The notes under the pieces are model-generated. The model did no database searches. It was not told the origin of the DNA and worked only from the letters and a program-made list of their open reading frames with translations. Below, piece by piece: positions 6,923 to 21,108 of a DNA stretch of 64,000 bases (its first letter is position 1; the number at the start of each line of letters is the position of its first letter). The stretch comes from a virus, in IMG/VR virus record IMGVR_UViG_3300033997_000092, positions 186,001-250,000 of that record; one strand, written 5' to 3'. Position numbers and translations under genes: made by a program.

Positions 6923-7261
6923 TTAATTTTCCACAATATACGTTGCACATATAGAATACCAATTATATCTGTTTGCTGTAAATTCTTGGAATTGACCTCG
7001 AGTTATTCTAGCAACAAAGGCATCTATTTGCGCGGTATCTGTGATAGCAACGCCGTTTTTGGAGAACGATACGTTGTTATTTACCAGATTTTTAATATAG
7101 ACGTATCTTGTACCTCCAGGTTCATACAAATACAAATACAAATACCCTGCGGCATCCTCAACCCAGGTATTTTCTTTATTAACTGTGAGCCTGTCATAAG
7201 CACATACTGTGACAAATTCAGGCTCAGCTTCTCTCTTATAGATATGTTGGTGCAATGGCAT
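6923..7261 (-). CDS. Small unknown protein between holin and spanins, 112 aa
   Basis: No family recognised. Aromatic and beta-rich, with many Y, W and V residues and no membrane segment. The N-terminus (LHQHIYKREAEPEFVTVC) resembles that of the 109-residue protein at 9711-10040 (TQHVYRKEKETVQVC), which hints at paralogy and possibly a role as a small virion or surface protein. It lies between the holin and spanin candidates, so it could also be a lysis accessory. No strong Shine-Dalgarno is visible in front of ATG 7261. Confidence 0.65.
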   Translation of the reverse strand: MPLHQHIYKREAEPEFVTVCAYDRLTVNKENTWVEDAAGYLYLYLYEPGGTRYVYIKNLVNNNVSFSKNGVAITDTAQIDAFVARITRGQFQEFTANRYNWYSICATYIVEN

Positions 7262-7988: not shown

Positions 7989-8528
7989 TTAAATAACGAA
8001 ATTGATTGTCATGTCCGGCATTTTAATCTGTTGGCCTACAACAACATTCAATTGAGACAGTTCAAGATCGGCTCCAGAATCAGCCAAGCCACAAGTACCG
8101 TGAATAATAAAATTCGTTTGGGCCGCAGCGGCTGTACTGTTTGTATAGTCTGAGTTACTAAAACATAGTGTAAAGCAACCAATCGTTCCAACTTGTGTCG
8201 CTTTGAACACATCAGCACGTTTAGAGAATGCCAAGATACGTTGCAGAGGATTATCGCCCAAGTAACGATCATCAAAGTTCAGGAATACCATACGTGCTAA
8301 CTCGGTCTTCCCGTAGCTAGGCATACCTGTAGTAGCATTGAACGGCCATGTACTGTTGATAACCGTACCAGAGCGATGTGATTCATACATAGCTGCGAGT
8401 TGTACATCAGACAATTCGCCTCCTGTCCACAGACTCACTATACAATGGTTATTATTGCCTAAATGAGTTTGGATAGGAGAAGTGAACTGGCCTAACATAA
8501 GGCTCTTGGCCGTAATTGCAAATTCCAT
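7989..8528 (-). CDS. Array protein, short family (A), 179 aa
   Basis: Last member in transcription order of a group of six short (163-182 aa) paralogues. It shows both family landmarks: an N-terminal strand-turn around residues 30-37 (IVSLWTGGELS, matching LYEGPELT and IYNGPMPT in sisters) and a C-terminal block GLADSGADLELSQL followed by GQQIKMPDMTINFVI, matching VGDIGSGSDLEVL and KIADFRVNI elsewhere. It has no catalytic motif, signal or membrane helix. Position in the tail block suggests a surface-exposed virion protein such as a receptor-binding subunit; this is inference. It follows its long (B) partner directly. Confidence 0.75.
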   Translation of the reverse strand: MEFAITAKSLMLGQFTSPIQTHLGNNNHCIVSLWTGGELSDVQLAAMYESHRSGTVINSTWPFNATTGMPSYGKTELARMVFLNFDDRYLGDNPLQRILAFSKRADVFKATQVGTIGCFTLCFSNSDYTNSTAAAAQTNFIIHGTCGLADSGADLELSQLNVVVGQQIKMPDMTINFVI

Positions 8529-8540
8529 ACTGGACTCCTA

Positions 8541-9686
8541 CTACGATACTTTGATTGGGAACGGATTCAGGAGTTTGGGAACGATGTTCTCTGTACTCAA
8601 GAATGTGGTACGGTTTAACTCAATTTTTCCAGGACCTGTGCCAACTTCCGCAAGAATCATAGGATAGTAACTTACATTGGGGCTGAACTTACTGTTCTTA
8701 TCCGTCGCATACGTCGGGAAGCTCGGTGAGTAAGGGGTAATTAATGCCCATGTCGGAGTAAACGAATTGTTTTGCGGTGAAGCTGCTTTACCTAAACCAA
8801 AATCACTTAGATATAACGCCATAGAGCTGCCTTCACTCAAGCTTCCAGTTGACCACGCACGTATCAAGAACTTCGATGCCGTTACAGGGGCGTTTAAAGG
8901 TACTACTATATACGAAGTGTGGTTACCGGTAGAATATGACATAATTCCTACACTGGTCCAAGCAGTATCTGCCTCATTCCTGTAGTAGAACTGAATGTTC
9001 ATCGTTCTTGCACCGCTGCTATGGCCGTTGTTCTGTCCACTAGGTGGATGAATTCTGATTATTATTCTATCTACAGTGATAGGACTCCTATACTCCATAG
9101 CACTGTATCTGTCATTAGCGCGTATATATGAATGACCACCCACATAAGCATAGAGTTCAGGAGAACCATCTAGTCCTGGTCTTGGATCTAACCTTCTAGC
9201 TACTGTATACGTAGCTATGGATATGTCTGAATCTAATATAGGACCCGAGCTTGTATTTCCGTATAGCCAATAGTCCATTGGAAATACTGCGATTGACGAA
9301 TCCATTGTTCCTGAGGACAGAGCGCCTCCGAATGTAGAAGCATTGAAGCTCGTTAATCCTGTAGGAAGGTTTCTCGGGTGGAATATAGTATTTAGTGAGA
9401 GTGCGTCTGTACCAGAATTTACTAAGTTAATCGTATCATTTGCTTCTACGGTAGTTGCCAATTCTGTACTATACGCAATAATACCTTTTGCATTGTATTG
9501 GAGTGCTTTAAGGCGTGTGCCTGTCTCTCCGGTTTGCTGGGAGTCATCCAAGAAAGGCACATTATCAATACTTGAAGGAACGGCACCATCGAACAGAAAA
9601 ATGTTACCGCCGTACGTAACAGAGCTAGTCGCCACATTTTGGCTTACCGCTCTCAGCAATCCGCCTTTAAGACCTATATGCTTCAT
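8541..9686 (-). CDS. Array protein, long family (B) with discoidin-like middle, 381 aa
   Basis: Largest member of the long (288-381 aa) paralogue family. Landmarks: IFLFDGAVP at residues 29-37 and a C-terminal TPTWALITP block, both shared with sisters. Between them, residues about 150-305 form a beta-rich segment resembling a discoidin (F5/8 type C) jelly roll: paired strands around VDRIIIRI, NIQFYYRN and SKFLIRAWSTGS. Such folds often bind sugars. ATG 9686 was chosen over a GTG at 9701 because GGAG lies nine bases before it. Likely a tail-surface adhesin or decoration; the function is inferred from context only. Confidence 0.75.
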   Translation of the reverse strand: MKHIGLKGGLLRAVSQNVATSSVTYGGNIFLFDGAVPSSIDNVPFLDDSQQTGETGTRLKALQYNAKGIIAYSTELATTVEANDTINLVNSGTDALSLNTIFHPRNLPTGLTSFNASTFGGALSSGTMDSSIAVFPMDYWLYGNTSSGPILDSDISIATYTVARRLDPRPGLDGSPELYAYVGGHSYIRANDRYSAMEYRSPITVDRIIIRIHPPSGQNNGHSSGARTMNIQFYYRNEADTAWTSVGIMSYSTGNHTSYIVVPLNAPVTASKFLIRAWSTGSLSEGSSMALYLSDFGLGKAASPQNNSFTPTWALITPYSPSFPTYATDKNSKFSPNVSYYPMILAEVGTGPGKIELNRTTFLSTENIVPKLLNPFPIKVS

Positions 9687-9710
9687 AAGAAAATTCTCCA
9701 CATAATCCTG

Positions 9711-10040
9711 TTAAGGATCGATTTCATTTAATACACATAATTGGTAATACGTATAGGTTATGTCTTCCGATCTATACGCTCCCCGAGAACAACGACCCAC
9801 TACTTCCATGATAGGTTCAGCTAATATGCTGTTTATCGTGAATGTTCCTACTACATAAAACTCGAATGTTGGTGTTGTACCATTTGTTTGCCAGTGGTAT
9901 TGATTACCTTCTTCATCAGCGAAGTACCAGTAATGCCTATTAGATGCAGATAGCCTTTTCTTATAGATTACTTGGCCTTGACTTATACCACATACTTGTA
10001 CAGTTTCTTTTTCTTTCCTATATACATGCTGTGTTATCAT
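9711..10040 (-). CDS. Small unknown protein, 109 aa
   Basis: Starts at an ATGA overlap with the DUF1353-like gene, so translation is probably coupled; an earlier in-frame ATG at 10067 lies deep in that gene and is less likely. Beta-rich and aromatic. The beginning TQHVYRKEKETVQVC resembles QHIYKREAEPEFVTVC of the protein at 6923-7261, suggesting distant paralogues. No known domain, signal or membrane segment. It interrupts the run of A/B array genes together with its upstream neighbour. Confidence 0.65.
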   Translation of the reverse strand: MITQHVYRKEKETVQVCGISQGQVIYKKRLSASNRHYWYFADEEGNQYHWQTNGTTPTFEFYVVGTFTINSILAEPIMEVVGRCSRGAYRSEDITYTYYQLCVLNEIDP

Positions 10041-10537
10041 TGTCTGTTTTCTTCCCATGCACGGCATCCCATAAGACGTAAAGCAGAATACATTGCCATT
10101 GTTTTACGTTTAGATACTCCATCTGCAATCAAGCCTAGCCTGAAAATCTGATCAGCTTGTTTCTGGTTAAAGAAATCTCCAGATGGATTTGGAACATCAT
10201 GTCTGTATAGCAGATCATGAATTACAGATGCACGTAATCCAGAGCCGAAAGGTGGAAACAGAGACCAAAGGCTACGTGGGCTACTAATCAAATCTGTTCC
10301 GAATCCTTCCAAAGCAACCAAATCTACTGTGCGGAAGTTACACACGTACGGAGATTCAATTACACATTTCTTGTCCATATCCCAGCAAAACTGAAAACCA
10401 AAGTCTTCAACAAGCTCGAATTTATATCCACCTGGGAATGAATACAACTTTAAATCGCCGACAAACACAGGTGCATGCGGTACACCTTGTTTTGTCTCTG
10501 TGACAGTTATTTCATACATAGAAATTGGAGTGGACAT
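10037..10537 (-). CDS. DUF1353-like phage protein
   Basis: 166 residues from ATG 10537, chosen because GGAG lies nine bases upstream; an ATG at 10555 is also possible. The pattern GFGTDLISSPRSLWSLFPP, then AxVIHDLLYRHD, then a helix with QADQIF and a C-terminal MYSALRLMGCRAWEE, matches the DUF1353 family found in many tailed phages. It is usually encoded near lysis or tail genes and has no settled function. The conserved H-D-x-L-Y motif is present (near residue 112). It overlaps the next gene by ATGA. Confidence 0.75.
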   Translation of the reverse strand: MSTPISMYEITVTETKQGVPHAPVFVGDLKLYSFPGGYKFELVEDFGFQFCWDMDKKCVIESPYVCNFRTVDLVALEGFGTDLISSPRSLWSLFPPFGSGLRASVIHDLLYRHDVPNPSGDFFNQKQADQIFRLGLIADGVSKRKTMAMYSALRLMGCRAWEENRQ

Positions 10538-10556
10538 TGCTGCCCACTCCCTCATA

Positions 10557-11048
10557 TTATGGAACGCGAATTTCCAAATCTGTTATCTTGTAGACTTTGC
10601 CCGATTCAGATAAAGCAGACAGTACCTCAAGATCAGACCCTGAGCCTATATCACCGACACTTCCAACAAACGCTTGGTACACGTTCGCATTAGTTGTATA
10701 CGTCGGGTTGTTAATCGCGCTATCCACATACATAAACACGAACCAATTCAACGCACCTGAGGAGTGCAGTGTGTAATCCTGAGCTAACGCTTCGAGGCTC
10801 CACTTTTTGAAGTTCTTGTTAATGATCTGGACCGTAGCTGTGTTTGGATATGCAGCACTAAGACGTAACGTACCTAGTGCTTTCAAGCTGTTGCTTTGAA
10901 TTACACCAGATGTTTGAATCAGTGCTTCAATCTGAGCTTTGGTCGGCATAGTACCACCGAACAACCAGATTACTTTCTTTGATGCAGATACTACCTGCTC
11001 ATGTCTGGCTGTAGAAAGATGCTTCATACCTAAAGAGAACTTAGCCAT
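10557..11048 (-). CDS. Array protein, short family (A), 163 aa
   Basis: Short-family paralogue. Residues 27-36 read VIWLFGGTMPTKAQIEALI, nearly the same as the sister at 11918-12463 (AIYNGPMPTKAQFEAAM). The C-terminal block WFVFMYVDS...GSVGDIGSGSDLEVL...YKITDLEIRVP matches the other short members. GGAG stands seven bases before ATG 11048. It follows a long (B) member with no gap, a B-then-A order seen repeatedly here. No enzymatic motif; probably a small structural or receptor-binding protein of the tail. Confidence 0.78.
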   Translation of the reverse strand: MAKFSLGMKHLSTARHEQVVSASKKVIWLFGGTMPTKAQIEALIQTSGVIQSNSLKALGTLRLSAAYPNTATVQIINKNFKKWSLEALAQDYTLHSSGALNWFVFMYVDSAINNPTYTTNANVYQAFVGSVGDIGSGSDLEVLSALSESGKVYKITDLEIRVP

Positions 11049-11049
11049 A

Positions 11050-11916
11050 TTAAATCTCCGTTACTTCAGGTTTCAAACGGGCATACATCAAAGCAGCCTG
11101 TTGTTGTGGAAGTATCTGTGCTTTGCTTAAACGCACTTCTGCTGTTGTAGCAGGTCCGCCTGCAGTACAGATCAGGAACGGTGTAGATGCTCCTGCTGGC
11201 ACATAGGCGCTGTTGTATGTAACAGGCTTAATGATTGCCCACGTTGGAACAACAGCACTGTTATTTGGATTCACTGAGGTATAAGGAACGAACTTAGTGA
11301 TACCGCAACTTCCTACAGCAAACCGCACTATCAAACGTGTTGCACCTGGAGCAGATACTGGACGTAATACAGTGCTGCCTATTTGGGTAAACAACTCAGT
11401 TTCAGTTGTGCCGTTGTAGGCAAACACGGTGTACTGAGTGTTGCTATCTGCGGTTACAGTAATGTGTGACACATCTGCTGTATTCCATAGATCGAAGTTT
11501 AATTGGTTTGCGCCAGCCGCCGCAGTGAACGCATATTGAAGTCTCGCAGACAGTACATCCAATTTACGTTCCAGGTTTAAGCTTGGTGTTGTTCCAGTTA
11601 AATCACGCATACCTATAGCATACACAGGTACACCGTTTACCTCAGTTTCTGCTTCGTCGCGGCCTGCAGCAGGATAACCATAAAGGCGCTGTGTCTGAGC
11701 AAATTCCATCATGTGTGATGGAGATACAAGTAACGAAGAAGAAACACGTAAAGCCTCTACTGCATTTTGCAGCAAGCCGCTATCTGTGTTTGGGTCAAAT
11801 GATATTGCTTCTTCGGATTCTGGAACTGTACCTGCAAAAACAAACACGTTCCATCCAGAAGTACCTGCATAGTCCTGCATACTCTGCAAGATATTAGAGT
11901 GACAGAATAAAAACAT
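11050..11916 (-). CDS. Array protein, long family (B), 288 aa
   Basis: Long-family paralogue with VFVFAGTVPESEEAISF at residues 24-40, matching VPESMGTFPF in the sister at 12475-13416. A middle beta-sandwich-like segment (LNFDLWN, YTVFAYNG, RLIVRFAVGSCG) corresponds to the discoidin-like region of the family but is shorter. The C-terminal VPTWAIIKP...PFLICTAGGP block is the shared end module. There is no gap to the downstream short member. Predicted virion surface protein; substrate unknown. Confidence 0.77.
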   Translation of the reverse strand: MFLFCHSNILQSMQDYAGTSGWNVFVFAGTVPESEEAISFDPNTDSGLLQNAVEALRVSSSLLVSPSHMMEFAQTQRLYGYPAAGRDEAETEVNGVPVYAIGMRDLTGTTPSLNLERKLDVLSARLQYAFTAAAGANQLNFDLWNTADVSHITVTADSNTQYTVFAYNGTTETELFTQIGSTVLRPVSAPGATRLIVRFAVGSCGITKFVPYTSVNPNNSAVVPTWAIIKPVTYNSAYVPAGASTPFLICTAGGPATTAEVRLSKAQILPQQQAALMYARLKPEVTEI

Positions 11917-11917
11917 A

Positions 11918-12463
11918 TTAGCCGCCCCATGTGTAGTTGAATGTCAAGTCGTTGCCTTTCAGCACCTTTGACATATCGATTGCACTTCCAGCAAGGACCA
12001 TATCAGCATTGCTGCCAACATCGCCTATAGTACCGATACCAACAAAGTAAGCAGGCTGGCTCGAGGTCATATCAACAGCAGCCGTAGCACAAGTTGCGAA
12101 CAAGAACCAACTAACTGTACCGCCAGAAATTTTAGTAAATTCTTCAGCACGTTCACTCAGAGGGAAACGGAACTTGGTCGGACCTATGTTGTGACCTTGT
12201 AGTGTGTTCTCATAACGGCACCACGCCTTCAACGTACTGCCTAATGCTACTGCCCACTGATTTAACAGAGTCAGGCTGTACTGGCCACGCACTGTACTGA
12301 ACTGAATACCTGAACCGGCAACAGTGCTAAACATAGCCGCTTCAAATTGTGCTTTGGTAGGCATCGGGCCATTATAAATAGCCATCATCTTGCGGTACGC
12401 ACCTGAAGTAACGTAATCAGCGTTTGCTAAAGGTACTAAACCGTCCGTTGCTAAAATTGTCAT
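11918..12463 (-). CDS. Array protein, short family (A), 181 aa
   Basis: Short-family paralogue: MMAIYNGPMPTKAQFEAAM at about residues 26-44 and the end block WFLFATCATA...GIGTIGDVGSNADMVLAG...LTFNYTWGG. AGGAG lies eight bases before ATG 12463. Closest in the N-terminal motif to the gene at 10557-11048, suggesting these B-A pairs (12475/11918 and 11050/10557) arose by duplication of a two-gene unit. No catalytic residues or signals are apparent. Confidence 0.78.
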   Translation of the reverse strand: MTILATDGLVPLANADYVTSGAYRKMMAIYNGPMPTKAQFEAAMFSTVAGSGIQFSTVRGQYSLTLLNQWAVALGSTLKAWCRYENTLQGHNIGPTKFRFPLSERAEEFTKISGGTVSWFLFATCATAAVDMTSSQPAYFVGIGTIGDVGSNADMVLAGSAIDMSKVLKGNDLTFNYTWGG

Positions 12464-12474
12464 GCGAAGGCTCC

Positions 12475-13416
12475 TTACTCTACTTCGTTAACTACGTTGC
12501 CGAACACTTTCAGGTGAACCAGCGAGAAACTATCACTGATGCCTGCACGACGACGATTTAATACAGCTACTTTACCGTCAAGTGGACCACCTGCACTCAG
12601 CACCATAGCAGGCACCTGTGTAGCATCGGCAGACTTGTAAGTTGCTGTTGTTGGGTTAGCTGGAACCAATACACACCACGTTACGTCTGTAGTAGTTTTG
12701 TCGAACGTGTTTGATGGCAGCTCACTCGCAAAGAAACGAATGAAGCGATACTGCAATGTGTTAGCGGCCACTGTACCTGTATCATTCAGGAAACGAACAC
12801 GCCACAGACGCGCACTAATTGGAGCGAATGTAATTTCAATGCCCGCAGCGTTGTATGTTTTCACTGCTACGTTTGATGCCGCTGGAACCCATACAGATCC
12901 ATCGTAGTATTCGACGTTGATGTTGCTGGCATTACGAGTGGTTGCACTCATGTTAGCAAACAGTACCTTGTTGATACTGCACACATCGCCAAAATCAAAT
13001 TGAATGAAACGACCTGTGACTAAGTGTGTCGATGCTGTTGCTGTAACGGCGCTATCCTCTAAGCCATTAACATAGCCAACAGGTTCATCCATACCAGGAA
13101 TGTCAGTAGATATTGCCTGAGGCAAACACTGTATACCTGCAGTACCGTTATTGAGGCGTTCTCCGTGCATTTTCAAAGTAAACAAGGTCGACGCATGTTC
13201 AAAAGCTAACAGTTCTTGGCCGTAACCAGCGCTGTTAACCGCAGTAACACGAATACCAGCAATAGCATTGGCGAAGATACTGTCCATGTTAGCTAACTGG
13301 AATGGAAACGTACCCATAGACTCAGGTACTGTTCCTGACATTAAAAACATATTCCAGGCAGTGCCTCCTTTAAGAAGCATAGACTGAGCTTGAGCAAATT
13401 GTGCGGCTACGTACAT
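12475..13416 (-). CDS. Array protein, long family (B) with discoidin-like domain, 313 aa
   Basis: Long-family paralogue with NMFLMSGTVPESMG at residues 22-35. The central domain (about residues 130-245) is the clearest discoidin-like stretch in the array: RFIQFDFGDVCSINKVLF, then NINVEYYDGSVWVPA, then ARLWRVRFLNDTG, the strand order of F5/8C sugar-binding domains. The end module DVTWCVLVP...VPAMVLSAGGP is shared. Predicted tail-surface protein that might recognise host glycans; binding is inferred from the fold resemblance only. Confidence 0.78.
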   Translation of the reverse strand: MYVAAQFAQAQSMLLKGGTAWNMFLMSGTVPESMGTFPFQLANMDSIFANAIAGIRVTAVNSAGYGQELLAFEHASTLFTLKMHGERLNNGTAGIQCLPQAISTDIPGMDEPVGYVNGLEDSAVTATASTHLVTGRFIQFDFGDVCSINKVLFANMSATTRNASNINVEYYDGSVWVPAASNVAVKTYNAAGIEITFAPISARLWRVRFLNDTGTVAANTLQYRFIRFFASELPSNTFDKTTTDVTWCVLVPANPTTATYKSADATQVPAMVLSAGGPLDGKVAVLNRRRAGISDSFSLVHLKVFGNVVNEVE

Positions 13417-13426
13417 AACTCTTACC

Positions 13427-13969
13427 TTATGTCAGTGAGAAATTAAATTCTGAAGTGGATGCTTCCATCAGAACTACAGTGATTGGCGATACAGTTATTT
13501 CCATGGAGGATACATCGCTATAGAATATTTCACGCACTGCAGGTGATGTAGAGAATTGTGATTCACCTTCACCTACCAATGTAATACGTGAATCCAACAA
13601 GCGTCCATCGAGATACTGTTCAGGCGTTACGTTGACTGTGATGTTATTCGCATCATAAGTAGCAATGTTTGACTTATACCCAAGCATTTCATTCAGGTTA
13701 AAGTCTTCAGGTGCACCAAAGAAGTACAGACCTATATAACCGTAGAACAGACTTGTATCTTGATTGAGTGTAGCTTCCGCTTCTTGGAAAACACTCAACG
13801 ATACTTGGATACCATTGATGTCAATGTTCTGGTCGATTTCACTTGTTATAAGTGGGCGGAAGTTAGTGTCTCCTTCCAGTACACCCAACATAGTTGTTGA
13901 GATTGTGTCTGGAAAAAGTACACCAGGCTCGAACCGTTGAGCATAGTAATTATGAACTTGGATAAACAT
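13427..13969 (-). CDS. Array protein, third family (C), 180 aa
   Basis: Unlike its A and B neighbours but related to the 113-residue protein at 16090-16431. Both open with a short tail-like start and then F-x-x-G-x-LF-x-x-T (RFEPGVLFPDTISTTML here), continue to RPL, and end in short beta repeats (SPITVVLMEASTSEFNFSL here). The repeated strand pattern ITVNVTPEQYLDGR suggests an immunoglobulin-like or beta-sandwich fold. A GGGG ribosome site precedes ATG 13969. Likely a small virion component; no known family was recognised. Confidence 0.7.
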   Translation of the reverse strand: MFIQVHNYYAQRFEPGVLFPDTISTTMLGVLEGDTNFRPLITSEIDQNIDINGIQVSLSVFQEAEATLNQDTSLFYGYIGLYFFGAPEDFNLNEMLGYKSNIATYDANNITVNVTPEQYLDGRLLDSRITLVGEGESQFSTSPAVREIFYSDVSSMEITVSPITVVLMEASTSEFNFSLT

Positions 13970-13972
13970 AAA

Positions 13973-14509
13973 TTACCCCAGCAGGTTACTGATGTTCACA
14001 CGGAAGTCAGCTATACTGTATTTCTTACCTACAGTTACAGCCAGTGAGCCTACTTTAATGTCTTCTGTTGATGCTGGTAATCCTACAGTACAACAGAATA
14101 ATGTTCTGGCACTTGTAGTTGCTGATCCGTGTAAAGCTATTACCATAAGGCCCACATCACCAGCAGCAAGACCTTGCATGAAGTCAGTACGTTGGCTGAA
14201 CAAGAACGCTGCTCCTGAAGGACCTTCATGGCGCTTTTGTGTGAATGACGTCATCGCAGTAATAGCACCCGCAGTTGTTACCACAGAACCCAAGCGAGTT
14301 CGCGTAGACACCAGATTGGTATTCACTAAATCTAAGTTGATAATACCAGTCGTAGCGTTTTTAGCAGTGCCATTTATATAGTTCATTTCAGCAGGAGTAA
14401 TTGCAGGACCTGTGTAAAAGAAAATCGATACACGATCTGTATTCGCTAAATCGTTCCTGTGGAATGGGTACTTCAAGAAACTCAACATCGTCTTATTTGC
14501 TAAAAGCAT
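13973..14509 (-). CDS. Array protein, short family (A), 178 aa
   Basis: Short-family paralogue and tandem duplicate of the next upstream gene (14509-15057). The starts align (MLLANKTMLSFLKYPF versus MFLANKGMTAYLMNPF), the ribosome sites are nearly identical (TAGGAGAGTCGTA and TAGGAGAGTCCTA), and both share the G-x-x-x-T/G-x-A-E-M/L motif around residue 34 and the end block VGLPASTEDIKVGSL...YSIADFRVNISNLLG. The start overlaps the upstream stop by one base. Predicted surface protein of the tail. Confidence 0.8.
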   Translation of the reverse strand: MLLANKTMLSFLKYPFHRNDLANTDRVSIFFYTGPAITPAEMNYINGTAKNATTGIINLDLVNTNLVSTRTRLGSVVTTAGAITAMTSFTQKRHEGPSGAAFLFSQRTDFMQGLAAGDVGLMVIALHGSATTSARTLFCCTVGLPASTEDIKVGSLAVTVGKKYSIADFRVNISNLLG

Positions 14510-15057
14510 TACGACTCTCCTAATAAGTCTGTCAGCCTGACATACATATCATTCACACGGATTACATCGTTGGCTGCAATTGTTGTATTTTCTATCTCAA
14601 TCTCTTTGCCAGATCCAGGTAGACCTACTGTCATAAGTACCGCTGCGTGAATAGGACCGTTGTAGTTGTCGTACAGCATACACAACATTAGTCCAGTCGT
14701 ACCTGCTTGAAAACCTTTCAGTACCGAGGTCACTACTGGCCGCAAACGTAAACAGAACTCGTCTACTGTATTGCCATACGCTTTGTTCACTAACAACTGA
14801 CCGCTAACCGTAGTTCCACTGATAGAAGTGTAGGCTAAGTAACGGCGAATGCTGTTTAAATATGTTGTGAACGCACTGCCTCCTGCCATTGCCCCCGTTC
14901 CAGTTGTAACAGCAGTTTTAAGTGCGGCTAATTCTCCTGCAGTCAGTTCTGGACCTTCGTACAGGTAAGTCACTGCGTAACTTGCAAATGCTCCGCCTGC
15001 TGCCGCCCGGAAAGGATTCATCAAATAGGCAGTCATGCCTTTGTTTGCTAAGAACAT
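14509..15057 (-). CDS. Array protein, short family (A), 182 aa
   Basis: Short-family paralogue with TYLYEGPELTAGELAAL at residues 30-46 and the end block AAVLMTVGLPGSGKEIEIEN...YVRLTDLLGES. It is the tandem twin of the gene at 13973-14509; the pair breaks the usual alternation of long and short members. A glycine/alanine-rich stretch (AAAGGAFAS) at residues 18-26 and another in the middle could be flexible. AGGAG precedes ATG 15057. No enzymatic motif. Confidence 0.8.
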   Translation of the reverse strand: MFLANKGMTAYLMNPFRAAAGGAFASYAVTYLYEGPELTAGELAALKTAVTTGTGAMAGGSAFTTYLNSIRRYLAYTSISGTTVSGQLLVNKAYGNTVDEFCLRLRPVVTSVLKGFQAGTTGLMLCMLYDNYNGPIHAAVLMTVGLPGSGKEIEIENTTIAANDVIRVNDMYVRLTDLLGES

Positions 15058-15074
15058 TAGGACTCTCCTATTTA

Positions 15075-16082
15075 TTAGAACAACTGCCCGTAAGCTAAGT
15101 ACAGATCAAACTTACTATCGTTGTTGGCTTGCACAGGAGCGTTGAAGCGCAGACGTCCATTTCCACCAATACCAGAAGCACTTACCAAGAAACAGAAATC
15201 ATCTGTGTCAAACGGGCTATTGCCGTAAGAGTCAATCAGTTTTGCCTTTAAATTTGTCAACACTGTTGCTGATGTGAAATCAGGAACGATAACTGCCCAA
15301 GTAGGAACAGCTAAGTTGTATTGTACATCACCAGCTTCATAATCAAACTTACCGAAGTAGGCAAATGCCATAAGCACGGTACCTGCTGTACCTGACGCCA
15401 GTTTACGAATACGGAAGCGTGTTGCAGTTACTTCTGGGAAGCGAATGATTTGGTAACCTGTTACGTTCAGTACAGAAGTAACCAGCTCTACCCAAGCACT
15501 ACCGTTATAGTATTCGATGACCATCTGACGCATAAACGTGTTTGCAGCAGTACCTTGTTTGATACCGAAGCAGTTAACGTCTATAGGACGATTATATTCA
15601 AATTCAAAAACTTCGTTGGTGTTTGTGCTTACAGTCACATAACTTGTTGTCAGACCTGCGAAGTTTGCTTCGGAACTCTGCTTGTACATAAACAGTTCAA
15701 ACAGTTTGTGGTCACGGTAATCACCATACGCTTTAAAATTCGATGGGCCATAAACCAAGTGATTGGCGAAATTGGTACTTACAACACTTCCGCCTTGATA
15801 CACGTTCACAGTCTCACCAGCATATTTGGCAACTATGTCTGCGCCTTTCAACAAAGAACTACGCTGAGTCAATTGCACTTCAGATACAGATGGATACGAC
15901 AGTGTTGCCAGGAAAGCGTTTTTGCAGTTTTGGATAAGGTTAGCTGCGTTTGGAGCAAAACCAATACCATCGAAATCTGTAGGAGGTGTGCCTTCGAAAG
16001 CATACACCAGCATGTTTGTGTTTGCTGGAAAGTTTACTTGCATACCAGCAATCATTGTTTCAGTTGCGCCAAATACGTGCAT
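15075..16082 (-). CDS. Array protein, long family (B) with discoidin-like domain, 335 aa
   Basis: Long-family paralogue: NMLVYAFEGTPPTDFDGIGF at residues 23-42, a discoidin-like centre (EVFEFEYNRPIDVNCFGI, QMVIEYYNGSAWVEL, TRFRIRKLASG, roughly residues 150-255) and the end block VPTWAVIVPDF...FLVSASGIGGNG. The strand pattern is very close to that of the gene at 12475-13416, although the residues differ, as expected for diversified receptor-binding modules. GAGGT precedes ATG 16082. Predicted tail-surface protein. Confidence 0.78.
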   Translation of the reverse strand: MHVFGATETMIAGMQVNFPANTNMLVYAFEGTPPTDFDGIGFAPNAANLIQNCKNAFLATLSYPSVSEVQLTQRSSLLKGADIVAKYAGETVNVYQGGSVVSTNFANHLVYGPSNFKAYGDYRDHKLFELFMYKQSSEANFAGLTTSYVTVSTNTNEVFEFEYNRPIDVNCFGIKQGTAANTFMRQMVIEYYNGSAWVELVTSVLNVTGYQIIRFPEVTATRFRIRKLASGTAGTVLMAFAYFGKFDYEAGDVQYNLAVPTWAVIVPDFTSATVLTNLKAKLIDSYGNSPFDTDDFCFLVSASGIGGNGRLRFNAPVQANNDSKFDLYLAYGQLF

Positions 16083-16089
16083 GTTTACC

Positions 16090-16431
16090 TCACGATAAGT
16101 TTAACACTATTGTAAAATTACTCGATTGTCCGACCGAAGCAACGATTGGTGTGACACCAGCTTCAAAATCTAAGACATCGCCATAGAAGAATCCATCTAA
16201 CACAACTGGACTCACATTAACAGTGAAGTTAGCAACACTGTCTTGGTAAAACAGATTGTTTTCATTTTGACTTGCATTCGGGAATAAAGGAGCACTCACT
16301 CCTTCGAGAGGCCTCAAAATTCTAAATGTCTTTGGGTCCAGCGCTACAGATACCTCTACTGTCTCACCAAACAAAGCACCAGAATCAAAACCAGGACCAT
16401 AACGTCCACTTGCTTTTACTAAGTTGCTCAT
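16090..16431 (-). CDS. Array protein, third family (C), 113 aa
   Basis: Smaller relative of the protein at 13427-13969. The start YGPGFDSGALFGETVEVSVAL aligns with YAQRFEPGVLFPDTISTTML, both then reach RPL, and the end SNFTIVLNLS aligns with SEFNFSLT. It lacks about 65 residues in the middle compared with that sister. Beta-rich, no signal or membrane segment. It overlaps the upstream short-family gene by ATGA, so the A and C products are likely made in coupled amounts. Confidence 0.7.
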   Translation of the reverse strand: MSNLVKASGRYGPGFDSGALFGETVEVSVALDPKTFRILRPLEGVSAPLFPNASQNENNLFYQDSVANFTVNVSPVVLDGFFYGDVLDFEAGVTPIVASVGQSSNFTIVLNLS

Positions 16432-16931
16432 ATCACGTGCCTCACTTTAAAGTTCAATGCACGGTATGTTTGACCTAATGTCATAGATGGATTGTTGATT
16501 TTCAAATCACCATCATCATTTAAGTCCGTTATAGTTCCTTTCATTGAGAACAGTGAATTACCGTTTACGTTGTAGGCTACGTTTGATGCACGGTCATACA
16601 GCAAGAACCAGTCAGGTACTCCAGAGGTCAGTACAGTTACAGGAACTCTGCCTAACTGAAAGTTTATATTCAAGTCAGGTGCACTTCCTATATTTGGATA
16701 GGTTGCTTTATCAATATCGATGTAACCAACTATCTTACCTCCACGTGCAACAATAGCAGAGTACAGTCCTGCAAAGCTGCCGAGAAAAGGATTAGATGTG
16801 TTAGTTATGTAAGCACCAACTTCCTGTGCAGTCATATAACCTTTTTCAATCAACACGAACTGATAACGAAAGCCTGAATTTTTCAAAGGATATTGGTAGA
16901 TTAATGCAGCCGCATCTTTATTCATTCTCAT
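16428..16931 (-). CDS. Array protein, short family (A), 167 aa
   Basis: Short-family member. The start at 16931 forms an ATGA overlap with the upstream long member and has GGAGG ten bases before it; the longer upstream frame would lie wholly within that gene. Landmarks: YQFVLIEKGYMTAQEVGAYI at residues 23-42 and the end block WFLLYDRAS...KGTITDLNDDGDLKINN...YRALNFKVRHVI. It is the most diverged short member. Predicted small surface component of the tail. Confidence 0.75.
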   Translation of the reverse strand: MRMNKDAAALIYQYPLKNSGFRYQFVLIEKGYMTAQEVGAYITNTSNPFLGSFAGLYSAIVARGGKIVGYIDIDKATYPNIGSAPDLNINFQLGRVPVTVLTSGVPDWFLLYDRASNVAYNVNGNSLFSMKGTITDLNDDGDLKINNPSMTLGQTYRALNFKVRHVI

Positions 16932-17845
16932 GTTGCAGTTGCCTCCAGCTTTATGTCTTCTGTTATGAAAACAATAGGAGTATAAACAGACGGCTCTTCC
17001 CTGTTTGTTTCGCATTCTGATTTATCGAATGCAAATACTGGACACCGAGTTGTTGACCAATCTAACGCAGTAGGATATCCTAAGATATTGTACATGATTG
17101 GACAAAGAAGGATTGTTTGTATTGGACGAGATACGCAGCGTCTCTGGTCTGTTGTAGCGTAGAATGTGTCAATTGACCATCCTACTTGGCCAGCACTAGC
17201 AACAGCAACAGTCAGTTTTATGCCTGAGCATACGCGCTCAACCAATCCACTTACTATATTTGTCCCAGAGCCTACAATCAAACCCAAGTCTTGCCAACTT
17301 CCATTCACAAGACACTCAAGGCGTACTGATGTTGGGCGTTGGTTTGTAGCACTGGCTATACCTGGAGCGTATTTAACATCTTTCACAAAGCACGGTTCAA
17401 ATGTCTGCACTATTTCAGCAGATATGAAATCCGTTCCCCATACAATTGGAATGTTCCTTTGTGGAGCAGCCAAGCTGTAGTGTGGCGTGTAGAATGCGAA
17501 TATGTCTCTTGGGACAGTTGTGCCAAAGTACATTGATTCAGGACAAACACGTATTTCTTGCTGACCGTCGTCACTATAGGCTCCTAAGTGTTTAACCAAA
17601 GGCGCTCCATATGTTGTAGTCAACTTGTTGTAAGATATTGTCCCTAATCTGCCTGCCGCAGACAATGTATGTGAGGCAATGCAATGTTCGGTGAAATACT
17701 TCAGAGCTTCTGGTGAAGCTGGAGATTCCATCAGAATATCCAACTCACTTGTATCCATGAACAATGCAAGCCACGTATAAGCTGACCCAGATTGTCCTGC
17801 TAGTCCATTAGCAATACTTGCGTTCCAGTGAATTAATTCCATCAA
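16928..17845 (-). CDS. Array protein, long family (B), diverged, 305 aa
   Basis: First array member in transcription order. Its length and middle beta region fit the long family: TSVRLECLVNGSWQDLGLIVG at about residues 170-190 corresponds to the VEYYNGSAWVEL strand of sisters, with a CSGIKLTVAVASAG strand after it. The N-terminal motif is weaker (WLALFMDTSELDILM). The family's end block is degenerate (ILLCPIMYNILGYPT). Its stop overlaps the start of a short member. Relationship to the family is therefore likely but less certain than for the others. Confidence 0.68.
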   Translation of the reverse strand: MMELIHWNASIANGLAGQSGSAYTWLALFMDTSELDILMESPASPEALKYFTEHCIASHTLSAAGRLGTISYNKLTTTYGAPLVKHLGAYSDDGQQEIRVCPESMYFGTTVPRDIFAFYTPHYSLAAPQRNIPIVWGTDFISAEIVQTFEPCFVKDVKYAPGIASATNQRPTSVRLECLVNGSWQDLGLIVGSGTNIVSGLVERVCSGIKLTVAVASAGQVGWSIDTFYATTDQRRCVSRPIQTILLCPIMYNILGYPTALDWSTTRCPVFAFDKSECETNREEPSVYTPIVFITEDIKLEATAT

Positions 17846-18443: not shown

Positions 18444-18671
18444 TTAATTGACGCGAGCTTCGCCTGTTAATGGGACAGAGAATTCAACACGCAAAGTGTT
18501 TGAATCTACCGATGAAACTGACTTAGGCAGTATCTTTTGGAGCTTGCCTTGCCAGTTAACAAACACGTCCACAAGAACATTAGTTCTTCCAAGATTGTGT
18601 GGGATGCTCCACACAGTGTTTGCATGATCTTGTTTGTGCGAATAGCCTGCACCACGAACTTTAAGTGTCAT
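18444..18671 (-). CDS. Stand-alone fibre-type beta domain, 75 aa
   Basis: Consists of little more than one beta domain that also occurs in neighbouring fibre proteins: HANTVWSIPHNLGRTNV, then a strand, then ILPKSVSSVDSNTLRVEF, then PLTGEARV. The same order (H-x-x-V/W-x-V-x-H-x-L/M-G ... P-x-S/T-V/I ... D-x-N-T/S-L-x-V-x-F ... TG) is seen in the 206-residue protein at 18684-19304 and at the end of the 564-residue fibre. It is likely a small fibre-tip or chaperone-like subunit that assembles with them; this is inference. Confidence 0.7.
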   Translation of the reverse strand: MTLKVRGAGYSHKQDHANTVWSIPHNLGRTNVLVDVFVNWQGKLQKILPKSVSSVDSNTLRVEFSVPLTGEARVN

Positions 18672-18683
18672 AGTTAGGCCTCG

Positions 18684-19304
18684 TTACATACAAAGAACAG
18701 TACCAGTCACTGCATTAGTGAATGTCAATACTGTTTGGTTAGTTGTTGTGTGTTGGACTGAGCTAGGTAATAACTCAAATCCATCCGATGTAATGAAACG
18801 GATGATAGGAGCATATCCCAGCATGTGGTTCACAGTTACTTCTGTTGTAGCCACGTCCACTTCCATTTCATATGCAACATCAGGCTTAGTCATGCCGTCC
18901 AGGTTACCTATCATTATGATAGCGTGACCAGTAGTTGCTTGCGCGAAAGTAATCTCAACTGTATCAGCATCAATGCCTTCAACGCTGTCAGGAACAACAA
19001 GCTGGTTATCGCTGTTGTATACTTGGACAATTACTTTAGCACTGTTCATACCGTGTGGGACAGTCCACACAGCACTTGCAGAGTCTTGCTGGTGTATGTA
19101 AGTATTACGCTCTTGCAGCAGAGGTACCCACAGTACACTTTGACCATACGCTATAGCAAACAGCAAACGACCATCTACTACAGCTACACGGTTTGGAACA
19201 GCATATTGTACGCCAGCAGAGTCATCACCTAAAACAACATGACTCAAAGCATTACCTTGCATGTCCAGACCGCCGAACATCGTTAATCCGCCTAAGACCT
19301 TCAT
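18684..19304 (-). CDS. Small tail-fibre protein with two copies of a fibre beta domain, 206 aa
   Basis: The start at 19304 is preceded by AAAGGTGA; a longer frame to 19370 would run through a terminator hairpin and is rejected. The N-terminus MKVLGGLTMFGGLDMQGNALSHVVLGDDSAG resembles the opening of the large upstream fibre (VIGNITLVGGGTIRNMKP), a typical fibre attachment start. It then holds two copies of the domain SAVWTVPHGMNSAKVIVQVY...DADTVEITFAQATTGHAIIM and EVTVNHMLGYAPIIRFI...NQTVLTFTNAVTGTVLCM. Probable fibre or fibre-tip subunit. Confidence 0.77.
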   Translation of the reverse strand: MKVLGGLTMFGGLDMQGNALSHVVLGDDSAGVQYAVPNRVAVVDGRLLFAIAYGQSVLWVPLLQERNTYIHQQDSASAVWTVPHGMNSAKVIVQVYNSDNQLVVPDSVEGIDADTVEITFAQATTGHAIIMIGNLDGMTKPDVAYEMEVDVATTEVTVNHMLGYAPIIRFITSDGFELLPSSVQHTTTNQTVLTFTNAVTGTVLCM

Positions 19305-19330
19305 GGATTCACCTTTGGTTCGTTGGGACA

Positions 19331-19360
19331 AAGAAAAATGGGGAGACAAAGCTCCCCATT
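19331..19360 (-). terminator. Rho-independent terminator behind the 564-aa fibre gene
   Basis: On the minus strand AATGGGGAG and CTCCCCATT form a 9-bp stem with a 6-base loop, followed by TTTTTCTT. It lies between the stop of the large fibre gene and the start of the 206-residue fibre gene, so it would reduce transcription of the downstream array and lysis genes relative to the upstream tail genes. Confidence 0.85.
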
Positions 19361-19379
19361 CATCAATCACTGAGGCCTA

Positions 19380-21074
19380 TTAGGCAGCAGGAGCAACAGT
19401 TGTTACGATCACTTTGCACTTAACGGCGATAGCGAAAGTAACTGTCAGGCTGTTACCATCTACGTAGGTGATGGTGTCTGGCAGAACAACTTCGTCTGAT
19501 TCGTCAACAACAGTTACCTGGCAGTATTTCGTGCCAATGTTGTGTGTAACAGTGTGTGAAGCAGAAGCAGTGTCAGTACCTGTTGCAGTGCTGTCGTAGA
19601 TGAACTGGCCAGCGCTGATACGAGTGTTGACGTTGCTGATTGAAGTGTTGATACCAGATACTGCGGTATCTAAGTCCAGCTTACGTGCTGGGTTAGCATC
19701 GGCAGTAGGAGCAATCACAGTAATCGCGCCTGTGAAATCAGCACCATCTAAACGGCCGTACAATGTGTCCAGATGTGCTTCATTCACTTTAACGCCAGTA
19801 GCATCAACAGTGATAGAAGAATCTGAAGCCAGAACAGCCAGGTCAACACCTGAACCGCCAGTTAAACCGTTACCAGCAACGTCACCTAACATAGTAGATG
19901 CAACGCCCTGAGAAGCGATTTGTAAACCACCAGAACCGTCGAAGCTCAAGCTGTTGTTCGCGCCGACTTTGATAGCCAGTTGGCCATTGCTGTCAGTAGT
20001 TTCGTCAGTACCGTTGATAGTCAGCATCAAACCGCGGTTCAGGTACAGATCTAAACCAACTTCGTCTGAAGGCAGTTCAGCGATACCAGCACCTAAGTTA
20101 ACGCTGATTGTGTTACCAGATTTGCTCAGACCGATACCAGCATTCACGCCAGCCAGACCACCGAACTCACCCCATGCGCCGCCCTGCAGAGCTAACCAGG
20201 TACCAGCAGTTGTATTCCATGCCAGCGCACCGTTAGGGCCTGATACAGAAATGTCATAGCTGATAGACTGGATTGCACCAGTAGCATCAACAACTACGAT
20301 GTCACCAGCAGCAGGAGTCAGAGTGTTTGGATCTGTGAAGTCTGAACCATCTACATAGATGTAACGGCCAGCAGCATCAACGAAATCGCTTTCGTAACCA
20401 ACTACGTCAGCTTGGAAGTCCAGGCCAGCGATAGCATTTTGCACGTCGATTAAACGGGCAGCATCTGTAGCGTTTTCTGGAGTAGCCAGACCGATGATTT
20501 TGTTGTTGTTCATCGCTAACTGACCGAACATGCTGTCGCCAGCTTGGTTTACTGGAGTGTAGCCCAGATTGTCTTGCTTGCTGTCAATTTGGGTCTGTAC
20601 GTTATCAGTCACACCTGACAGGTAACCCAGCTCAGTAGTAGTTACAGCAGATGCAGCAACTTTACCAGAACCATCAGACACTAAAGCCTTGCTTGTATCC
20701 AGGTCAGAAGAAACGATGGTTGTAGCAGCACCAGTGACAGTATCCTGTTTGGTACCTAAACGAGTTTCAACGTGACCCTTAGATACAGCAGCCAGGTTAT
20801 CTGAACCAGACTGATCAGTGCTTGATAACAGCAAGTCGGCTTCCATAGCCACTGTGCCGTCTTTCTTCACGTAATCGTTCAGGTTGCCACCTTTAGCAAC
20901 TGTCTGTACGCTGGTACCATCGTAATACTTCAGCGCTTTTTCAGTTGAGTTGTACCACAGGCGAGACTCATAGCCAGCTAACTCGCCAACCGTTGGGTCA
21001 GTTGCCAGGTTTTCTGGTTTCATGTTGCGGATGGTACCGCCGCCGACTAATGTGATATTACCAATTACTTGCAT
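19380..21074 (-). CDS. Tail fibre protein, 564 aa
   Basis: Long, glycine/alanine/threonine-rich fibre. The N-terminus has the trimeric-fibre attachment pattern GYESRLWYNSTEKALKYYDG. Residues about 150-200 include TTTELGYLSGVTDNVQTQI, a coiled-coil-like motif common to phage fibres and trimeric adhesins, and FGQLAMNNNKIIGLATP, a repeated fibre-knob motif. The C-terminus carries the beta domain HTVTHNIGTKYCQVTVV...DGNSLTVTF shared with the next two genes. ATG 21074 is preferred over 21080 because AAGGTG is at the right distance. Expected to form a receptor-contacting trimer. Confidence 0.86.
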   Translation of the reverse strand: MQVIGNITLVGGGTIRNMKPENLATDPTVGELAGYESRLWYNSTEKALKYYDGTSVQTVAKGGNLNDYVKKDGTVAMEADLLLSSTDQSGSDNLAAVSKGHVETRLGTKQDTVTGAATTIVSSDLDTSKALVSDGSGKVAASAVTTTELGYLSGVTDNVQTQIDSKQDNLGYTPVNQAGDSMFGQLAMNNNKIIGLATPENATDAARLIDVQNAIAGLDFQADVVGYESDFVDAAGRYIYVDGSDFTDPNTLTPAAGDIVVVDATGAIQSISYDISVSGPNGALAWNTTAGTWLALQGGAWGEFGGLAGVNAGIGLSKSGNTISVNLGAGIAELPSDEVGLDLYLNRGLMLTINGTDETTDSNGQLAIKVGANNSLSFDGSGGLQIASQGVASTMLGDVAGNGLTGGSGVDLAVLASDSSITVDATGVKVNEAHLDTLYGRLDGADFTGAITVIAPTADANPARKLDLDTAVSGINTSISNVNTRISAGQFIYDSTATGTDTASASHTVTHNIGTKYCQVTVVDESDEVVLPDTITYVDGNSLTVTFAIAVKCKVIVTTVAPAA

Positions 21075-21108
21075 CGTCATTCACCTTTTGGTTGTTGAAT
21101 TTTGCATA

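Follow-up and report, generated by a model that had tools for sequence, protein, structure and literature searches.

The stretch of DNA analysed here (the window; 64,000 nucleotides, bases 186001-250000 of the 261,032-base IMG/VR record IMGVR_UViG_3300033997_000092) belongs to a jumbo myophage and carries on its minus strand, between positions 7989 and 17842, an array of about 11 related genes of two types, here termed A and B. With slightly better than even confidence, the array is best explained as an expanded family of baseplate garland or connector proteins, which is partly lectin-bearing and would serve adhesion to the host surface. Along the transcript the genes follow the order B A C B A A C B A B A, two genes outside the A/B family (a DUF1353 gene and X2) and a final B A. 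This order, the strand and the coordinates are exactly those given in an earlier note on this DNA, as are the counts of six short A genes (163-182 amino acids) and five long B genes (~288-386 amino acids). In a whole-genome search, all matches of the A and B profiles within this genome fall inside the array. Judged by its tail and baseplate genes, the phage is nearest to Phage NCTB, PaBG, Lu11 and the jumbo phages of Erwinia, Dickeya and Yersinia.

Homology of the A and B proteins

The grouping into short and long members had been proposed from the sequence alone, and it holds for all six A proteins as one family and for B2-B5 as another. Here, A1, A4, A5 and A6 cluster with 21 short genes at the corresponding locus of Alexandra-like phages (BLAST, E<1e-4), A2 and A3 enter the family by profile (hhalign 4e-10), and the external short family (S) matches the A proteins of the window at 5e-19. 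B2-B5 are linked to each other by BLAST (E<1e-4), and the B proteins of the window match the long family (L) of the Alexandra-like phages with an hhalign value of 2e-9. B1, which neither the B nor the A profile matches directly, is joined only through its orthologue at L017 and L018, the corresponding loci of close relatives (2e-30); since this orthologue matches the B profile at ~8e-4, B1 is regarded as a divergent B protein.

The two families are also homologous to each other. With NCTB and other relatives included, A and B match at the C-terminus (A columns 112-178 against B columns 263-327, E 6e-8), which confirms the common C-terminal end claimed before, and at the N-terminus (0.0015), while the middle of B is unmatched. 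The strand-turn motif noted near residue 30 likewise exceeds chance, the N-terminal profiles being in register with scores above the maxima of 120 column shuffles: 31.2 versus 14.2 for S against B and 22.4 versus 11.6 for S against L. For A against B the score is 18.2 versus 14.4, which is weak alone (4.7% probability) and is carried by S. As a null model, column shuffling is lenient; a few of its scores may also be repeats of the preceding one, which leaves the observed scores unaffected. E82, E84 and E87, other short families of these arrays, gave no N-terminal match in the profile comparison. Cross matches were found in the whole-genome searches as well, where the C-terminal end of B4 is a match of the A profile (1e-4), and A-type genes of AD1 (6e-5) and of the L017 phage (7e-4) are matches of the B profile. 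By itself, the N-terminal value is modest; homology of A and B beyond chance, the outcome that the note's profile comparison was meant to decide, is accepted because both ends match in the correct order. Judged by the profiles, B is an A scaffold split by an insert.

Some searches with single members remained empty: a search of viral contigs with B3 alone gave no relative, A5 found none in phage records (tblastn), and the A profile had no match among PDB sequences. The alignments A1/A2 had diverged too far to serve in a locus search, for which a conserved neighbour gene was used as query instead.

The garland fold of A4 and the inserted domain of B3

Structure prediction, which had been suggested as a further check, was carried out for A4 and B3. 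The AlphaFold2 model of A4 (11918..12463; pLDDT 82, pTM 0.81) matches PDB chain 9rkv_A with a VIA-align Z of 9.3 over 124 of 139 residues (root-mean-square deviation 3.2), the next best match having a Z of 4.9, and 9rkv_A is also the sole Foldseek match below 0.001 (5.4e-5). By sequence this chain is gp014 of Agrobacterium phage 7-7-1, a garland protein located around the distal baseplate, where it contacts the short and long tail fibres (PMC12796354). The modelled A4, the one A protein of the window that was modelled, thus has the garland fold of gp014 and fits it over nearly the whole chain.

The garland proteins of phage Milano have been reported to be similar to the dimer-forming connectors T4 gp8 and A511 gp105 (PMC10811340). 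A direct comparison of A4 with the Listeria A511 gp105 connector (6hhk_A; T4 gp8 and A511 gp105 both being BW3TFN) yields a Z of 4.1, which lies within background here, as do the PRMT chains found at Z 3-4 in the same structure search. In phage 7-7-1, gp014 and gp012 both belong to phrog_3758 and lie close together beside a tail-fibre gene, a small paralogue set that resembles the situation in the window. However, 7-7-1 and Milano (gp125/gp127) have two paralogues each (141 and 143 amino acids in 7-7-1) with no lectin insert described, whereas the array of the window comprises six A and five B genes, contains an inserted domain in B and belongs to a jumbo phage.

The AlphaFold2 model of B3 (12475..13416; pLDDT 68, pTM 0.69) contains an inserted F5/8C domain at residues ~90-236 (12709..13149), which matches many CBM32/discoidin chains with VIA-align Z values of 12.7-13.9. 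Pfam F5_F8_type_C_2 recognizes it at 1.3e-5, its score of 26.1 bits lying just below the cut-off of 27.8. In the model the insert has a galactose-binding-type beta-sandwich fold, and this sugar-binding-type domain, clear in the B3 model, supports a surface role of B. Elsewhere, two members of the long family match a laminin-G-like domain (AD1_085 at 7.7e-5 and JA29_083 at 0.0012), both under the Pfam cut-off. F5/8C, CBM32 and discoidin domains have been surveyed in jumbo phages (PMC7824862), and their type is that of B3; in the parts of the survey considered here, they are scattered and no array on a common scaffold is described.

Age and exchange of the modules

In a tree of the A family, A1, A3, A4, A5 and A6 each pair with a gene of L017 (bootstrap 95-100) and A2 joins A3. 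Since five A lineages pair with genes of L017, duplication mostly predates the split from the nearest relative. The repeated duplication and divergence that the earlier note had proposed is therefore supported, although most of it is old and A2/A3 is the sole duplication seen in the lineage of the window. A6 and its L017 orthologue (14513-15079) occupy different places in their arrays.

The note had also expected exchangeable parts, and exchange is seen in two independent comparisons. The DNA of L017 and L018 is mostly 96-100% identical around and through the array, dropping to 71-87% over the initial 1.5 kb of the locus. The differing array genes are the B gene B2b (27% protein identity), the next A gene (78%) and a gene of the D type (47%), while the A gene after these is 97% identical. 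For these three genes the number of synonymous substitutions per site (dS) is 1.1-2.6, in comparison to 0.005-0.15 for the other compared array genes. This supports an exchange of B/A modules between close relatives, as read from the sequences.

The second comparison concerns the Dickeya phages JA11 and JA13, whose host ranges differ although their annotated tail fibres are identical (PMC6143709). Their array proteins show ~116 differences in 3093 residues, in comparison to 32 in 6766 for the flanks of the same 32-kb stretch. A scripted count gave 118 of 2939 (4.0%) for the array versus 142 of 23012 (0.62%) for the other late minus-strand genes; the calculation behind the p value of 7e-44 assumes that residues vary independently, an assumption that does not hold. 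No other block of the compared late minus-strand genes diverges as much as the array. Within it, four genes of the order S L S L have a dS of 0.34-0.61 and a ratio of nonsynonymous to synonymous substitution (dN/dS) of 0.05-0.11, and the rest of the array has a dS of 0.01-0.08. We read this block as a tract that was imported and is under purifying selection; positive selection was considered but is not seen in these values. At gp073, JA29, which is more distant overall, has 2 differences from JA11 where JA13 has 22, which fits recombination.

JA11 and JA33 differ by an alanine-to-threonine change in a discoidin domain and have the same host range listed (PMC6143709); the change is A174T in the array gene gp073 and is the single substitution in this gene. 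Furthermore, hypothetical proteins of JA11 (NC_048077) at 171-177 kb and 209-211 kb are 31-67% different from JA13, the largest differences genome-wide. The array as the sole difference between JA11 and JA13 is ruled out by these stronger differences at 171-177 kb and ~209 kb, and because the genomes differ strongly elsewhere, the difference in host range cannot be assigned to the array.

These data bear on an alternative which we regard as rather unlikely, namely that the proteins are of garland type and located in the virion, but that their exchange has no influence on the choice of host and is either neutral or structural, the differences in host range arising from other loci. The low dN/dS, the common host range of JA11 and JA33 and the far larger differences between JA11 and JA13 outside the array would all fit. 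Nevertheless, the sugar-binding-type fold of B3 and the position of the array as the most divergent late minus-strand block of this pair speak against it.

Probable location in the virion and arrays of related phages

For PaBG, the proteins gp257, gp261 and gp263 have been found in virions (PMC7412058). Here, gp257 is the counterpart of the gene at 19380-21080 of the window, and gp261 and gp263 occupy the genomic slot of the array. The gene numbering of PaBG is supported since the computed masses match those of the paper for gp257 (57,162) and gp263 (18,908) and nearly so for gp261 (35,165 versus 34,778); for gp240 the mass does not match (54,052 versus 83,518). Based on the garland fold match, their position within the late tail module and the PaBG slot, the array proteins are probably on the virion surface.

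An A gene directly follows a B gene in 24 of 27 cases (permutation p 5e-5 for the window, NCTB and AD1 combined; 0.002 to 0.24 for single phages). This adjacency resembles fibre-chaperone gene pairs, and several adjoining genes overlap or abut, so the A proteins might be assembly chaperones or adaptors of B, with only B present in the virion as an adhesin. This appears improbable, since A and B have common scaffold ends and the fold of A is that of a structural protein of the virion. To our knowledge, known fibre chaperones do not typically show such a fold or a scaffold common with the partner.

The array recurs in NCTB and in jumbo phages of Erwinia, Dickeya and Yersinia. Homologous short and long families alternate in Alexandravirus, Yoloswagvirus, Sasquatchvirus, Salmondvirus, Rivsvirus, Snuvirus, fHe-Yen9-02 and NCTB, mostly at the corresponding position ahead of the lysis genes, and the genes are mostly annotated as hypothetical. 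The arrays of the Erwinia and Dickeya phages differ in that M and other families are added. In the Erwinia relatives, L and S genes are stable at the locus. The M and E88 genes at the array front vary in number and order among these relatives (L019-L036), and M is similar to the long family at its N-terminus (8e-5). In NCTB (LT598654.1) the array lies at ~141-155 kb (141.2-154.9 kb) with the order B B B B A A c B B B A C B A B A, far from the lysis and baseplate genes of this phage. A whole-genome profile search of PaBG, Lu11 and HRDY3 found no A or B match (E 0.001). A published description of the array was not found in a literature search limited to open-licence texts.

That the array proteins are a virion decoration forming or coating the tail hairs of hairy myoviruses is very doubtful: many related surface proteins would suit hairs and the array carriers JA phages, AD1 and Y3 have been called hairy (PMC6143709), yet the array as a cause of hairs is disfavoured because Lu11, also reported as hairy, lacks it, and the A fold matches a baseplate protein.

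Members of the array and neighbouring genes

All genes of the array are on the minus strand. B1 (16928..17842, 304 amino acids) is best started at the ATG at 17842 rather than at the TTG at 17845. It is followed by A1 (16428..16931, 167 amino acids), with a phrog_17152 match at 0.0026, and by C1 (16090..16431, 113 amino acids). Next are B2 (15075..16082), A2 (14509..15057), whose place beside A3 in the tree has a support of 93/87 on a long branch, and A3 (13973..14509), which has 41% identity to its L017 orthologue. C2 (13427..13969, 180 amino acids) matches the L017 gene at the corresponding place at 5e-4, and its N-terminus looks like NCTB_187, judged by eye alone. C1 and C2 had been taken as a third family; profile comparison does not bear this out (hhalign 3% probability and 1% after relatives were added), and C1 matches none of the other families either.

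Downstream of C2, B3 has 55% identity to its L017 orthologue. Beyond A4 follow B4 (11050..11916) and A5 (10557..11048; phrog_17152 1.7e-12), the latter with 53% identity to its L017 orthologue. X1 (10037..10537, with a longer open reading frame to 10555; 166 amino acids) is a DUF1353 protein (PF07087, 2.6e-16), and a homologue (~60%) is present among the lysis genes of the L017 and L018 phages. X2 (9711..10058) is possibly related to 6923-7261 (hhalign 9e-4 over 99 columns, single sequences). A small D family may be present in and after the array, comprising X2 and 6923-7261, while 7638-7967 matches L017 16299-16628 at 1.5e-9. The array ends with B5 (8541..9686, its start lying inside the open reading frame 8541-9701) and A6 (7989..8528; phrog_17152 0.012).

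On one side the array is flanked by the virion-protein gene 19380-21080 (phrog_16122) and three smaller followers, and on the other by genes with lysis-gene relatives. The upstream neighbours 18444-18671, 18684-19370 and 19380-21080 have a common repeated domain (BLAST ~1e-11 for the first and second, 1e-4 for the second and third).

A proposed garland of mixed composition

Several observations weigh against a lectin-bearing garland. The Foldseek template modelling score of A4 against 9rkv_A is just 0.48/0.59, and the link of the window proteins to phrog_3758 is weak (A1 0.0017, A6 0.006; NCTB_194 6.8e-5), A4 and A5 matching phrog_17152 alone. Structure models are limited to A4 and B3, and of the other B proteins, B1, B4 and B5 have no Pfam lectin match and B2 has a marginal one (F5_F8_type_C_2, E 0.044, below the curated cut-off). 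gp261 and gp263 of PaBG, considered as array homologues, have no detectable profile similarity to A or B, and the surface location is an indirect assignment. The relatives Lu11 and HRDY3 manage without the array, and the low dN/dS of the JA11/JA13 tract gives no sign of diversifying selection.

Taken with these points, a garland family remains the favoured explanation. Mechanistically, A would be the bare garland scaffold and B the same scaffold split by an insert, of the F5/8C sugar-binding type in B3. The adjacent B-A pairs may give rise to dimers of A and B, which would assemble so as to surround the tail fibres at the rim of the baseplate as a ring or network and offer several binding domains to glycans of the host surface. 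B/A tracts would be swapped by recombination, the common scaffold ends keeping the parts compatible. A role in host choice is proposed on this basis. A more specific version, which is tentative, is a mixed garland of many paralogous beads, some bare and some with different lectin-type domains, giving several glycan specificities per virion that could be changed by bead swaps without altering the main tail fibres.

If this is true, jumbo phages including isolates of Erwinia and Dickeya would have a second, modular layer of host recognition beside their tail fibres. The array would then be one among several testable candidates to account for the unexplained difference in host range between JA11 and JA13. 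Furthermore, proteins which are mostly annotated as hypothetical in these phages would gain a probable fold and place.

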